64,000 nt of DNA, taken from assembly GCA_003116975.1 (NCBI GenBank), contig BGKB01000117.1:62001-126000 (forward strand). Direction: 5' to 3'. The stretch's first letter is position 1, and the number at the start of each line of letters is the position of its first letter. The position numbers were made by a program, and so were the translations under genes. The notes beneath the pieces are model-generated. The model did no database searches. It was not told where the DNA came from and saw nothing but the letters and a program-made list of their open reading frames with translations. Positions 28,193-43,405 of this stretch are shown piece by piece. The DNA comes from Aurantiochytrium sp. KH105. Its lineage: Eukaryota; Sar; Bigyra; Thraustochytrida; Thraustochytriidae.

Positions 28193-29014
28193 GCCCTATT
28201 CACGCGTAGTCGCTCTTCGGGAGCGCGTGGTGGCGATCCAGGCGTGGCTTGATTTTCCGCCCGCCTTAGATGGCACGGCAAGAGGGTCAGAGGATACGTG
28301 GGTCGATGGGTGACAATGCTTGTGCCGCTGAGCCAGTGACACTGCGTTCCCGCAACGGATCGTTCGCGATCACCTCCACACAAAACTCAGCGGGATCGAA
28401 TGCACGTCACCATCCATAGAGCGCGACCAAGGGAAGAAGATCTCGACGCAGCGTCATTGCGGCAACAACGCGCTGGAACGCACGCTTGCTGTTGCATGCA
28501 CCCACACCATAATGCCAGCGCCAGCTGCAGTGCGCGCGCGCGTGCCGGAAATTAGCTAGCTCCTTGAAGGTATTTGCGTGCATGGCAAGTGTGGCCACAA
28601 GTCCACTATGGCCACAGGTCTAGTCTAGTATTCTAAATAATGCCGTGCAGGGGCTGGCGGCAGCAGCAGCGAAGTTCAGGGCCCATGGTCGCGCGCGATA
28701 CTACAGAAGCCGGAAAGGCCGGCCAACGTCAGCGCGCGAGCGAGCCTTGACAACCCGCGTTGGGGAGGCCTAGGCACTAGATAGGTATACAGAAGTAAGA
28801 TGTAGTGGGTCCAGTTGAGTCGAGATTTGGGATTGACATAAGCATTCTCGACCGGGGCAAAACCCCTTCGATCGATCTTCTGACGTAAGGCGTATACTCA
28901 CGCGCTCGCTAAGACGCTCGCCAAGACGCACGCACGCACGCACGCACGCACGCAAAGAAACAGGCAAACAGGTCAGCAAGCAGGTCAGCAAGCCTTCGAG
29001 CAGAGATCGCAAAC
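28193..29014. other. Divergent promoter region upstream of nitrile hydratase
   Basis: This lies between the coiled-coil gene (-) and the nitrile hydratase gene (+). No gene is seen. It contains an AGGCCTAGG palindromic motif at 28766-28774, related to the TAGGCCTA element found elsewhere in the window, and a GCAC tetramer tract at 28926-28952. Confidence 0.6.
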
Positions 29015-30409
29015 ATGTCCCGCGAGGTTGGCGCGCTTGGACAGCATGACGTGGGCGGCAACAAGGTGCTGTTCGAGCAGGTAGCCAAGGACGGAGAGGC
29101 AGTCGACACGCCGTCGGCACTCTGGGAACGCCGCGTGCACGCGACGCTGGGGATTCTCGCGCAGCGTAACCTCATCACCACGGATGAGATGCGCCGCGGC
29201 GTCGAAAATCTGCCCGAGCAGGTGTACAGCGGGTGCTCATACTATGGTCGATGGGCGAGATCTATGCTTGCCATTCTGCTCGAGCGTGGCATCCTCACGG
29301 ACGACGACGTTCGCGAGTTCTTCCTGCCGGACCCGCCTACGGTCCAGGAGAAGAACACCTTTAAAGACGGCGACTACGTCAAGGTGCGCAGTGAGGACTT
29401 TCGTACGCGCTTCGTACGTCCTCATTTGCGCACGCCCGGATACATTTTCGGCGTCATCGGTCAGATCGAACGCTATGTGGGCGCTTACAAAGCTCCCGAA
29501 CTCTTGGCGTTTCGGCGCGAAGCCCCTGAGCAGGACCTGTATCGTGTCCGCTTCAACCAGCGCGATCTGTGGACCAACTTTGTGGGCAGCGACAAGGACA
29601 CTCTGGACGTAGACATTTACGAGCCGTGGCTGATGCCGTCAAGCGAGGAGGAGTTCAATAAGCAAGTCCAGATGCGGCCCGGCGCGCACAAGCGCAAGGC
29701 CGAAGACCAAGGTCACGGGCACAGCCATGGTGGTCACGGACACAGTCACGGCGATGACCATGACCACGTGCACGAAGAGCGACCCATCGTGGAGCAGACG
29801 GCGCTTGAACGAGAAGGAGCTGCTGACGCCGACGAACAATTTGGCATTGGTCTCGTCAAGGCTCTGGTGGCAAAGGGCGTGTACACCATGGATGACGTGA
29901 ACAAGGCTGTCGAAGGCGGAGAGACCAAGGGCTGCCTGATGAACGGCGCAAAGGTGGTCCTCAAGGCGTGGCAGGACAACGATTTCCGCGAGCGTCTGCT
30001 AAAGGACGGCAATGCTGCTGTTGCGGAGCTCGGGTTTGAAGGTGGAAACCCCAACGCTCCGACAAAACTTATTGTTGTGGCCAACGAGGACAGCAAGCAC
30101 AACCTCATTGTTTGCACACTCTGCAGCTGCTATCCGGGCGGCCTTCTCGGTCCTTCACCATCGTGGTACAAGTCTCGATCGTACCGCGCACGCGCTGTGC
30201 GCGAGCCACGGCAGCTGCTTGAAGAGTTCGGAACCAGGATTCCGGACGATGTTCAGCTCTGCGTGCACGACTCCACCGCAGATGTGCGGTACATGGTTCT
30301 GCCACAAAAGCCTAAGGACTTCGTGAGCCCGACATCGGAGGAAGATGAAGCCAAGCTCCTCGCCAAGATTGAGCGCGGACATCTCATTGGTACCAAGATT
30401 GAAATCTAA
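29015..30409 (+). CDS. Nitrile hydratase, beta-alpha fusion, cobalt type
   Basis: A 464-residue fused enzyme that converts nitriles to amides. Residues about 1-230 are the beta subunit (ALWERRVHATLGILAQRNL, YYGRWARSML, then the SH3-like half with GDYVKVR...RTRFVRPHLRTPGYIFG and DLWTNFVGSDKDTLDVDIYEPWL). A His/Gly-rich linker follows at 233-252. From about 265 to 464 is the alpha subunit with the metal claw VCTLCSC (Cys367, Cys370, Cys372). Thr at position 368 is the signature of cobalt enzymes; iron enzymes have Ser. Bacteria keep the two subunits on separate genes. Eukaryotic fusions with a His-rich linker are known from Monosiga and some other protists. The linker may bind or deliver metal (inference). 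No activator gene is nearby. Single exon. Confidence 0.96.
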   Translation: MSREVGALGQHDVGGNKVLFEQVAKDGEAVDTPSALWERRVHATLGILAQRNLITTDEMRRGVENLPEQVYSGCSYYGRWARSMLAILLERGILTDDDVREFFLPDPPTVQEKNTFKDGDYVKVRSEDFRTRFVRPHLRTPGYIFGVIGQIERYVGAYKAPELLAFRREAPEQDLYRVRFNQRDLWTNFVGSDKDTLDVDIYEPWLMPSSEEEFNKQVQMRPGAHKRKAEDQGHGHSHGGHGHSHGDDHDHVHEERPIVEQTALEREGAADADEQFGIGLVKALVAKGVYTMDDVNKAVEGGETKGCLMNGAKVVLKAWQDNDFRERLLKDGNAAVAELGFEGGNPNAPTKLIVVANEDSKHNLIVCTLCSCYPGGLLGPSPSWYKSRSYRARAVREPRQLLEEFGTRIPDDVQLCVHDSTADVRYMVLPQKPKDFVSPTSEEDEAKLLAKIERGHLIGTKIEI

Positions 30410-35250: not shown

Positions 35251-36344
35251 TTACGCCTTGATGATGCCCTTCTCCTTGAGGAAGGCAATGGTCTTCTCGC
35301 AAGACTCCTCAACGCTGAGCTGGTGGGTGGGGAGAACGAGCTCCGGGGCGTCGGGGGCCTCGTAGGGGTCGTCGATGCCGGTGAAGTTCTTGATCTCACC
35401 AGCGCGGGCCTTCTTGTAGAGACCCTTGGGGTCGCGGGACTCGGCGACCTCGAGGGGGACGTCCGCGAAGACCTCGAAGAAGGGCACGCCCATGCGCTCG
35501 TGAATCTCGCGAGCCTTCTCGCGGCTGCGCTTGTAGGGGCTGATGAAGGAGGTGATGGCAATCACGCCACTGTCGGCGAAGAGAGCGGCGACCTCGCCAA
35601 TGCGGCGGAGGTTCTCCTCGCGGTCCTCGGCGCTGAAGCCGAGGCCGGCGTTAAGGCCGAAGCGGATGTTGTCCTGCGTAGAGGCGTTAACAAGACACAA
35701 AAGAACGAAGAGGATCACAGAAGCGAGTCGTCATACCGTCATCGGGAAGAGTCAGTCAGTCAGTCAGTCGATCGATTGATTTGTTGAAACAAGAGGGTTT
35801 TTGAACACGCGAGAACGAGACGATGCGGAAAAGACTTACACCGCTGTGAAGAGCCACGTGATCGCACAAACAATGGGATGAAAGAAGTACAGGAAATGAT
35901 AGATGCAAGCACATCGAGGGGACGCAAAGAGGCAAAAGGTTAGCGAACGTGCGGCAAGAAAAAGATGGTGTCGCTCAATTGCAGCGGGAAAAGGGGGGAA
36001 ACTTACTCGAGACGGTAGGCCTGGACGCCAGCCTCGAGGAGCTTGTGCTCGAGGGCGGCGCCGACAGTGGACTTGCCACTGCCAGAGAGGCCGGTCACCC
36101 AGAGGGTAGCACCAACGTGCTTGGACTTGAGGTAGTTCTGGCGCTCCTCGCGGGTGAGGAGGGCATCCGACCAGATGACGTTCTCGTTGTGCGAGGACTT
36201 GATGTTGGTGGTCACATCCTTGTGGCCGCTCTGGGTCTCGTCCTTGACGCCAGTGGACATGCTCATGGCGCCAACGCGGCGGCCGAGGATGTTCTCGGCG
36301 CGGGCAGCGACAGAGCCGCTCTTGGTGGCAACGGTCTTGAACAT
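35251..36344 (-). CDS. Adenylylsulfate (APS) kinase, three exons
   Basis: APS kinase phosphorylates adenylylsulfate to PAPS, the sulfate donor, using ATP. Exons 36344-36007, 35843-35840 and 35673-35251 join to 254 residues. The P-loop GLSGSGKST is at 85-93. The conserved [13 protein letters not shown] follows at 110-122, then [15 protein letters not shown] and [38 protein letters not shown] is restored only if a 4-nt exon (CGGT) is included. Introns are 163 and 166 nt, both GTAAGT...CAG. The N-terminal 50 residues ([20 protein letters not shown]...) are basic and hydroxylated, a possible organelle targeting peptide. There is no fused ATP sulfurylase domain. Confidence 0.95.
35840..35843 (-). 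other. 4-nt microexon of APS kinase
   Basis: Reverse-strand sequence reads ...TTCACAG, CGGT, GTAAGTC.... The four bases finish codon 113 (Asp, split GA/C) and supply codon 114 (Gly), giving the invariant LDGDN motif. Direct joining of the outer exons would shift the frame (phase 2 onto phase 0), so an exon of 4 nt (or 4 plus a multiple of 3) is required. This is the site with perfect flanking splice signals. Confidence 0.9.
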
Positions 36345-40308: not shown

Positions 40309-41085
40309 TCACGGAATGTATTTCTTCAAGAAGGCCCTATGAAAGTCGTTGCGTAGCGTATCGTTGATAAATCTCTTCTTGGGCGCTTGCTCCCCGCGGG
40401 CCTGGTTTTGAAACACCACGTCGGCGTCCCATCGTCGCTTGAGGGTCGTTGAAGCAGTTGCACCCGAAGCGATAGATGCTGAGTCTGAAAGCATGGCCTC
40501 TTGTCTTCGTGCTTTTGCCGAGATTTCCTCCTCTTCGGCCTGCTTGCGCGCGGCCTCCTCTTGTCGTTCTTTCTTGATGCGCTCCAGCTCACGGGCGAGC
40601 TCTTCTTCGTCGTCCGAGTCTGAGTCCGAGTCATCATCATCATCGTCGTTGTCGTCCGCGCCGTTCTCGTCTTCGGAGGCGCTCGAGACCTCGTCGTCCT
40701 TGTCGTCGAATTGCGCGAGATCATCATCCTCATCTCCTTCTTCTTCCTCCTCTTTGCGTTTTTCTTTGGCGCCACCACCGCCATCCTTGCCCTCACTTAT
40801 TATCCTTTTCTCCCTCACGCCCGCGCCCGTGTCCTTGTCCTTTTCGGCATCGGCAACGCGAAGGACGTCACTTTTGACGGCAGCAAGCTCTCGTCGCTCG
40901 AGGTCCTCGAGCGAAGCGTCCGTCTCGAGCTGTTCTGCCTGGCGCAGCTTGAGCTTGGTGTACCCGGTCGCGTCCTTGCGGCTGCGCTGCGCGCTGCCGA
41001 CGCCTCCCGTGCGGAAGTTGCCCTTGTCGAAGGTGTCGCCCGTCGCCTGCGCCGCTTTCCACGTCGGCAAGTGCGAGTGCGCCAT
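40309..41085 (-). CDS. CWC15: Spliceosome-associated protein CWC15
   Basis: A 258-residue protein. CWC15 (Cwf15/AD002) is a component of the Prp19-related complex in the active spliceosome. The N-terminus ([13 protein letters not shown]) matches the family start, rich in small residues. The middle is an acidic Asp/Glu/Ser tract (about 115-165), followed by a basic coiled coil ([20 protein letters not shown]). The C-terminus has the diagnostic end: [37 protein letters not shown]. Single exon. It is head-to-head with SF1, another splicing factor, 481 bases away. Confidence 0.95.
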
Positions 41086-41566
41086 CCTCCCGAGCGCGGG
41101 TCCACCTGCTCAGACGGAGTCCGCGCCTGGCTGCCTGGCTGCCTGCGCGTCGCGCACGAGCGCCGCCGGCGAGGTGTCGGAGTTGGGCTGTCTGCCAGCC
41201 TTGTGCTCTTCTGGTTTTGGTTTTGGCTTTGCTTTTGCTTCTACTATCTCGCCTGCCACGAGTCGCTCGCCGGCGCCGGCAGACCGCTTTCGGGCGCGCG
41301 CGCGAGACCTCGGTGCGCGGCGGCCCCGCGCGAGTCCGGCGCACCCGACGTGGCGCGCCGCGCGTCCGCTGTCGCGCTCGCGCCTCGAGAAACGAGAGCT
41401 CCGCGCCCGCGAGAACGAGTGGCGCGGCGCGGCGCCGCAGCAGCTCGCGCTCGCGCTCGTGCTCGTGCTCGTGCTCGTGGGGCTGCTGCAGCTGCTGCTC
41501 GGAGTAGCGAGAGGATCTGCTGCATCGTACGGGGGCACGCACGCCTTTCGAGCTGGCTGTGCGAGG
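41086..41566. promoter_or_regulatory. Shared divergent promoter of CWC15 and SF1
   Basis: A 481-base region between two splicing-factor start codons that point away from each other. It is GC-rich and open in several frames, but the translations are Arg/Ala-rich. No TATA box is seen. Co-regulation of the pair is inferred from arrangement only. Confidence 0.5.
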
Positions 41567-43405
41567 ATGGACGAGCAAAGCAAACGCGAAGAGGCTGCCG
41601 AGCGCGAGGCGTTGGCGAAGCAGATCTTCGTGCCGCTCAAGACGTGGTACAATGGCCTCGCCGAGGACGATGTGGATGGCCTGCGTCGCGAGTGCCAGGA
41701 TTTTCCCATCATATCCAGAGAACTCGCGTCCTGGCCGCACTTTGACAAAGTTCGCAAGGCGTACCAGCGCTCGGAGAATCGCCATGCGACGGAGATCGGC
41801 CAGCCGCAAGACGCCGAGCCTCGCAAGCGGCCTCGCTGGGGCTCCGATGACGATGCCGATGAGCAGGCCCAAAACACCAACGCCGTAGATGCCTCCGGCG
41901 ATGGAACGACGCGTAAACGCCGGACGCGCTGGGGCCCACCCAAAGAGACCCCAAAGGATGTTCTCCGGGAAGAGAACCTCATGATTCTCAAGTTGCGGAT
42001 GGCGTCAGTTGATCGCAAACTCCGCAACGTGCGCGACGACGCAAGGCGCGAAGAGTCGAACCCAAACCGCAGTCCGTCTCCCGAGCCGCAATATGATCGC
42101 AACGGAAAGCGCACCAACACTCGAGAGGTGAGAATGCGCGCTCGCCTAGAGGGAGAGCGCGCCAAGCTTCAGGGGGAGCTCATCGCGCTAAACCCTTCGT
42201 CTGCACGGTTTTCCGGTGGCCGCGGGCAGATGATCAAACGCAAAGTCTACGTTCCCGTCAAGGACTTTCCAAATTACAACTTTATCGGTCTCATTCTTGG
42301 CCCCCGTGGAAACACACAAAAGCGTCTCGAGGCCGAGTCCGGGGCCAAGGTCGCCATTCGTGGCAGGGGCAGTGTCAAGGAGGGCCGCGGGCGTCGCGAC
42401 CGTCGCGACCAGGATGACCTTGACGACGATCTTCATGTTCTCATTCAAAGCTTTGATCCCGCCAAGGTTGAAAAGGCCGTCGAGATGGTCGAGGAGCTTT
42501 TGCGTCCGCTCGATGACAGTATTAACAAACACAAACAAGACCAACTGCGTGAGCTTGCCATGATCAACGGCACTCTTCGCGAGTCGCATCACTGCAGCAA
42601 TTGTGGCATGCCGGGTCATCGTCACTGGGAGTGTCCCAAGGCGGAGGCGGACCGCAACTTTCAACGATCCAATGTGCGCTGTGCCATTTGTGGTGACGGT
42701 TCTCATCCTACGAGTGATTGTCCTCGTCGCAACATGCGCGGCGACAATACTCCCGGTGGTGCAGGAGGTGAGGATGGTCACGACAAGGATCGCGAGCAGG
42801 CGCGTCTTGATGAAGGATTCTCCGAATTCATGGAGGATCTTGGCGTAAAAGTTGACAAGCCGCGGGGGGGCGCGGCGCCGCCCCCGTCGCGGCCTCAGCC
42901 TCCAGTGGCCCCAACTCCCGCAACTGCGCAGACCGATGCTGCGACCTCTGGAGGGCCGTCATCGAATGGGCACACGAATACGCAGTCGCACTCGCAGTCG
43001 CAGTCGCAGTCGCAGCAGTCGCCAACACCAATTGCATCCTCACCTGCTGGGCCGGCCCGGCCATCCACGCAGGCTCCGAACATGCCTGCGGGCATGCCTC
43101 CGCCCATGGGCATGCCGCCTCCCATGGGCATGCCTCCCCCGATGGGCATGCCTCCGCACCAGCAGCAGCAACATCAGCAACAACATCAGCAGCATCCGCA
43201 TCAGATGCAACATCAGCATCAACCGTATCCGGGCATGATGATGCAGCCCGGCATGATGATGCAGCCTGGCATGCACATGGGCCAGACTTGGCAGCAAGGC
43301 GGGCCAAGTGCTCCTTTCAGACCGCCAATGCCCCCATGCGCGCCGCCTCCGCCTCCGCCGCGACCGCCTCCGCCGCCGCCGCCGCCCAAGCGCAAGACCA
43401 AATAG
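41567..43405 (+). CDS. SF1: Branchpoint-binding protein SF1/BBP
   Basis: A 612-residue protein that recognises the intron branchpoint in the early spliceosome. Two RWG motifs with basic upstream residues (RKRPRWGSDDD and KRRTRWGP) resemble U2AF ligand motifs. A helix-hairpin region contains the SPSPEP motif, known in human SF1 as a kinase site that tightens U2AF65 binding. The KH-QUA2 domain is at about 222-335 (KRKVYVPVKDFPNYNFIGLILGPRGNTQ split by the GPRG loop). Two CCHC zinc knuckles start at residues 343 and 372. The C-terminal half is Pro/Gln/Met-rich (PPMGMPPPMGM repeats). Start chosen at 41567; the long upstream extension of the frame overlaps CWC15 antisense. Confidence 0.97.
   Translation: MDEQSKREEAAEREALAKQIFVPLKTWYNGLAEDDVDGLRRECQDFPIISRELASWPHFDKVRKAYQRSENRHATEIGQPQDAEPRKRPRWGSDDDADEQAQNTNAVDASGDGTTRKRRTRWGPPKETPKDVLREENLMILKLRMASVDRKLRNVRDDARREESNPNRSPSPEPQYDRNGKRTNTREVRMRARLEGERAKLQGELIALNPSSARFSGGRGQMIKRKVYVPVKDFPNYNFIGLILGPRGNTQKRLEAESGAKVAIRGRGSVKEGRGRRDRRDQDDLDDDLHVLIQSFDPAKVEKAVEMVEELLRPLDDSINKHKQDQLRELAMINGTLRESHHCSNCGMPGHRHWECPKAEADRNFQRSNVRCAICGDGSHPTSDCPRRNMRGDNTPGGAGGEDGHDKDREQARLDEGFSEFMEDLGVKVDKPRGGAAPPPSRPQPPVAPTPATAQTDAATSGGPSSNGHTNTQSHSQSQSQSQQSPTPIASSPAGPARPSTQAPNMPAGMPPPMGMPPPMGMPPPMGMPPHQQQQHQQQHQQHPHQMQHQHQPYPGMMMQPGMMMQPGMHMGQTWQQGGPSAPFRPPMPPCAPPPPPPRPPPPPPPPKRKTK

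Follow-up and report, generated by a model that had tools for sequence, protein, structure and literature searches.

The window, by which we mean the whole 64,000-nt stretch of DNA analysed, is part of contig C117 and carries on its minus strand an APS kinase gene that runs from an ATG at 36344 to the end of a stop codon at 35251. Its two long coding exons flank a pair of introns of similar length, and between these lie four bases, CGGT, which as sequence form an internal coding exon of no more than 15 nt set between an acceptor and a donor (CACAG-CGGT-GTAAGT). When the 338 nt of exon 1, CGGT and the 423 nt of the last exon are joined, the result is a 765-nt CDS for a protein of 254 amino acids with LDGDN at residues 112-116, so placed that the codons of this motif are spread across three exons (Table 1). 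A sequence-only reading of the locus had proposed this arrangement, and our re-derivation reproduced its coordinates, phases and lengths (338 nt in phase 2, 163, 4, 166 and 765 nt) as well as its contention that inserting CGGT yields Asp-Gly-Asp-Asn, the spliced frame of 765 nt reading LDGDN. On the plus strand of the window, one uninterrupted reading frame at positions 28913-30406 combines the beta (N and C) and alpha domains of nitrile hydratase, a beta-alpha fusion. Also on the plus strand, positions 40412-43402 encode SF1-HH and KHDC4/BBP-type KH domains, a candidate branch-point-binding protein whose gene lies some 4 kb away from that of the APS kinase.

Table 1. Features of the APS kinase gene with its predicted microexon, in window positions.
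Feature	Position	Strand	Description
Exon 1 (coding part, ATG to CTC GA)	36007..36344	minus	338 nt, phase 2; APS kinase gene
Intron 1	35844..36006	minus	163 nt, GTAAGTTT...CTTCACAG; AG-free zone of 128 nt before the acceptor
Candidate branch point of intron 1, CTAAC	35939..35943	minus	A at 35940, 96 nt from the 3' splice site; motif match only
Predicted microexon CGGT	35840..35843	minus	C completes the Asp113 codon, GGT = Gly114; CTC GA/C GGT/GAC AAC = LDGDN, residues 112-116
Intron 2	35674..35839	minus	166 nt, GTAAGTCT...CTACGCAG; AG-free zone of 159 nt
Candidate branch points of intron 2, four overlapping CTGAC	35751..35767	minus	78-90 nt from the 3' splice site; motif matches only
Last exon, GAC AAC ... 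TAA stop	35251..35673	minus	423 nt including the stop

The P-loop and LDGDN are defining motifs of the APS kinase family, whose members also go under the names CysC and MET14. In the spliced protein a P-loop (GLSGSGKS) stands upstream of LDGDN, and the protein scores 229.8 bits with Pfam APS_kinase (PF01583; cut-off 21.1), the match beginning in exon 1 at residue 78, and 252.3 bits with NCBIfam apsK (TIGR00455; cut-off 138.7). The CGGT-containing product is thus a predicted full-length APS kinase. As had been claimed, the frame breaks without the four bases: the computed product of skipping CGGT stops after 149 amino acids and reaches only 35.3 bits with the Pfam profile, while retention of intron 1 gives a computed product that ends in RLE-stop. 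The asserted need for a microexon is supported by this difference in score, and by CGGT and its splice sites being kept in both copies of the gene (see below). In the PDB, 24 distinct sequences match the spliced protein at E 0.001, APS kinases and PAPS synthetases among them, and the five best matches, all to PAPS synthetase 1, have LDGDN in the alignment. A scan of genome contigs for relatives gave at least 405 matches, of which the best 80 were kept, the kept ones being bacterial or prokaryotic. Among these best 80 of at least 405, D113, G114, D115 and N116 are invariant (DGDN in 80/80) and residue 112 is leucine, completing LDGDN, in 79. One of the six scan patterns spanned DGDNIRFG, which favours selection of that string, but 36 of the 80 kept relatives lack DGDNIRFG and so were not selected by that pattern. 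A separate scan of viral contigs gave no relatives.

Holding the donor of exon 1 and the acceptor of the last exon constant and requiring each intron to span 30 nt or more, we enumerated six open in-frame insertions, and it is directly observed that CGGT alone among them gives LDGDN, the other five disrupting the motif. For single-intron solutions, donors (GT or GC) were allowed to lie as far as 60 nt inside exon 1 and acceptors as far as 60 nt inside the last exon; none of the 27 open products enumerated has DGD in residues 99-130. In the window TTCACAGCGGTGTAAGTC is found a single time, and the 76-Mb genome as a whole contains just one more instance, which belongs to the other APS kinase copy. 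The strict microexon motif has one occurrence on the two strands of the window. The pattern YAG-4 nt-GTRAG with any four bases is found five times on both window strands and is not rare alone. Among 20,000 mononucleotide shuffles of the inner 273 nt, one produced a rescuing microexon with YAG and GTRAG sites, and among 20,000 dinucleotide shuffles none did; the loose form AG-[CT]GGN-GT turned up in fractions of 0.0109 and 0.0013, respectively. Mononucleotide shuffles of the same 273 nt contained an AG-free gap of 129 nt or more in 8.1% of cases and three or fewer AGs (observed 3, shuffle mean 8.3) in 1.65%, frequencies at which the AG-free zone alone is not strong evidence.

A syntenic second copy of the region is present in the assembly, which comprises 367 contigs: positions 1234-64000 of the window align piecewise to positions 80001-142320 of contig C54 at 86-94% identity. 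Since most other genes looked at are also paired, the contigs appear to represent two haplotypes, or else homeologs that are very close. The APS kinase profile matches the genome at two loci, those on C117 and C54, with four exon matches in total, and the two APS kinase copies are apparently alleles. They agree fully in CGGT and in each of the four splice sites, a preservation seen directly, whereas intron 1 differs at 9 of 163 aligned bases (5.5%) and intron 2 at 11 of 166 (6.6%), each with one indel in addition. The exons differ at 4 of 338 positions (exon 1) and 7 of 423 (last exon); all 11 of these coding differences, including the seven in the last exon, are silent third-position changes, and the proteins are identical. 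Silent differences on both sides of CGGT are what selection on the CGGT-containing frame predicts. About 40 identical bases surround CGGT in both copies, which is weak evidence alone because the copies differ by only a few percent. The candidate branch point of intron 1, CTAAC in the window copy, reads CTGAC in the C54 copy, and intron 2 of the latter holds five CTGAC and one CTAAC at 78-98 nt from the 3' splice site. The genome also contains a strong pair of matches (C30/C87) and a weaker split pair to PF01507, the PAPS reductase family, a profile that is not specific to PAPS reductase.

The PfaA profile scores 930 bits on C72 and C155, short of the family cut-off of 1010.1; matches under that threshold also occur in 11 of 14 control genomes. 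Other contigs (C290/C61) match later parts of the profile. The 930-bit match suggests what we take to be a thraustochytrid PUFA synthase, and the host looks thraustochytrid-like. One of the C61 matches starts at contig base 32, as if the assembly had broken inside the gene. Several results speak against a straightforward assignment. The LABY-A primer site gave no match, and PMC12258536 puts thraustochytrid genomes at 30-60 Mb and one Aurantiochytrium at 45% GC, whereas the present assembly amounts to 76 Mb with paired copies and the window has a GC content of 54-64% in 4-kb bins.

Within conserved domains the genome looks intron-poor, a reading that covers those of chaperonins and proteasome subunits. 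In the chaperonin family 15 of 27 matches cover the profile from position 3 or earlier to 486 or later (of 490) in one open frame, one gene pair (C8/C118) being visibly intron-split, and of 32 proteasome matches, 25 extend from position 7 or earlier to 187 or later (of 189) in a single frame. For comparison with the APS kinase introns we delimited by eye 13 introns at nine loci, with one allele each (chaperonin L119; proteasome L124 and L126; Ras-family L128, L129 and L131-L134), the count excluding at least one more intron in L126/L127 (the PSMA locus) and what may be another where L132 ends; the Ras-type locus L130 has an in-frame insertion and no intron. The anatomy filter, a CTRAC 40-125 nt before a YAG within an AG-free zone, was chosen after these introns had been seen. 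In nine of the 13 other introns a CTRAC stands 42-122 nt ahead of the 3' splice site and within the AG-free zone; the remaining four fail the filter. The two APS kinase introns, with corresponding distances of 96 nt (intron 1) and 78-90 nt (intron 2), are observed to resemble most of the introns examined. With these two included, a CTRAC in a long AG-free zone is present in 11 of 15 introns (L124, L126, L128, L129, L131, L132, L134 and window 35674-36006). On the other alleles, a CTGAC stands at 42 nt in the AG-free zone of the chaperonin intron and at 208 nt in the PSMA intron.

Applied to every YAG in the window, the filter passes 8 of 2,793, and only the CGGT acceptor is followed by GTRAGT within 30 nt; in the C54 stretch it passes 11 of 3,084, and again only the CGGT acceptor is so followed. 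A stricter filter (AG-free zone of at least 70 nt, CTRAC at 70-125 nt) leaves 2 of 2,799 YAGs, the two APS kinase acceptors, though its limits came from a small number of introns, and it was widened once more of them had been collected. The Ras-family genes at L132 and L133 (C23 and C154) have donors GTGAGT, GTACGT and GTAGGT and one acceptor GAGTAG, signals that vary more than those of the APS kinase gene. According to PMC1431707, branch points usually fall in the final 40 nt of human introns, and for some human exons distant ones with AG exclusion zones are on record. In the present genome the CTRAC candidates often stand at 42-122 nt from the 3' splice site, farther out than the usual human range, and distant branch points with AG exclusion zones may here be the rule rather than the exception.

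We infer from the sequence, at a probability of roughly 0.93, that CGGT is a genuine and probably constitutive 4-nt microexon of the only APS kinase gene found, and that its flanking introns are each handled as a unit and removed sequentially. Each intron would be recognized through its own GTAAGT donor, CTRAC branch point and AG, with the putative branch point 78-96 nt ahead of the intron's 3' end; the 3' splice site would be whichever AG comes first once the long AG-free stretch is over. Since four bases offer no room for a pair of splicing complexes at the same time, removal of the introns would have to be stepwise, and either order would be workable because CGGT/GTAAGTC keeps the donor and CACAG/CGGTGAC keeps the acceptor. 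The mRNA that includes CGGT would restore LDGDN, and omission of CGGT or retention of intron 1 would give a truncated kinase. Inclusion is probably constitutive, since there is one APS kinase locus per copy and PF01507 genes are present. Intron definition had been put forward earlier for this site; that the introns are short with strong signals of their own holds, and on that ground the mode itself is plausible. We would go one step further only tentatively, at less than even odds: distant branch points (approximately 40-120 nt) may be normal in this genome, and the AG-free zone may let scanning find the first AG while the exon is ignored. Splicing that ignores the exon would need no exon-bridging factors, and a 4-nt exon in a catalytic motif could then be spliced constitutively; if this is true, the scanning-to-first-AG mode would have a natural minimal substrate in the APS kinase microexon.

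How the arrangement arose is a question apart from inclusion. The two introns are near-equal in length (163 and 166 nt) and 4 nt apart, and conserved domains in the genome are mostly uninterrupted, which would fit a later intron, such as an introner or a duplicated intron, having been inserted 4 nt away from an existing one. In a genome search at E 0.01, which skips simple repeats, the two introns matched nothing beyond the two gene copies, nor each other, and accordingly no introner or repeat family was seen; an origin by insertion seems unlikely. As to inclusion itself, CGGT might be used alternatively, as an on/off switch for sulfate assimilation in which inclusion gives an active kinase and skipping or retention leads to truncation or mRNA decay. 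Both the 149-aa frame left by skipping and the RLE-stop of intron 1 retention would make a clean off state, and the relevant part of PMC11121469 describes a glucose-dependent microexon switch in Trichoderma, but GTAAGT opens both donors and long AG-free tracts precede both acceptors, so the site looks constitutive and we consider a switch quite improbable. That CGGT is a coincidence, in a single 333-nt intron of a frameshifted pseudogene or a gene rescued by some other site, could appeal to the five occurrences of YAG-4 nt-GTRAG in the window and to the C54 copy, which shows only that the layout is common to both copies, but is made very improbable by the silence of all 11 coding differences, including the seven downstream of the supposed frameshift, by the failure of all 27 enumerated single-intron products to restore DGD, and by the near absence of rescuing strong-site microexons from the shuffles.

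A constitutive 4-nt microexon in this gene would place an ultra-short exon in the catalytic motif of an enzyme of primary metabolism in a protist-like lineage. It would also offer a compact test case for the removal of introns 4 nt apart without exon definition, and it carries the warning that annotation of such genomes may lose or truncate the APS kinase gene. Among the papers listed in searches of open-access text we found no report of an APS kinase gene with a microexon or with LDGDN split over three exons, none of microexons in thraustochytrids or their relatives, and none that combines microexons, protists and intron-poor genomes. Ultra-short exons as such are already known elsewhere; they are rare and easily missed by standard annotation. 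The description of CGGT as among the smallest possible exons has to be toned down, the portions of PMC8831610 concerned reporting an RT-PCR-validated 4-nt exon in rice (LOC_Os02g54020) and 1-nt exons in plants.

The rice exon is the closest in size, being likewise internal and 4 nt long; it was missed by annotation, and its omission truncates the protein. It belongs to a plant and was validated by RT-PCR, whereas the APS kinase CGGT is in another gene, in a protist-like host, and is known from the genome alone. In Arabidopsis APC11, according to the part of PMC4674806 that treats it, a constitutive 1-nt exon led the authors to propose combined intron definition with removal of the introns one after another, and our reasoning on sequential removal matches that in the pertinent parts of this paper and of PMC8831610. 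Both exons are ultra-short, with intron definition and sequential removal proposed for each, and APC11 is constitutive as CGGT probably is, but the APC11 exon is 1 nt long, experimentally verified in a plant and outside any kinase catalytic motif, whereas CGGT has 4 nt and lies within one. Xlr2 of Trichoderma virens, as the corresponding part of PMC11121469 has it, provides a microexon in a microbial eukaryote that is similarly needed for an intact conserved domain; unlike CGGT, which is not known to be regulated, it responds to glucose and belongs to a fungal transcription factor. Set beside the APS kinases themselves (PF01583), the predicted protein is typical in its full domain match, its P-loop and, once CGGT is included, its LDGDN, and the unusual point is that the codons of this motif are split over three exons.
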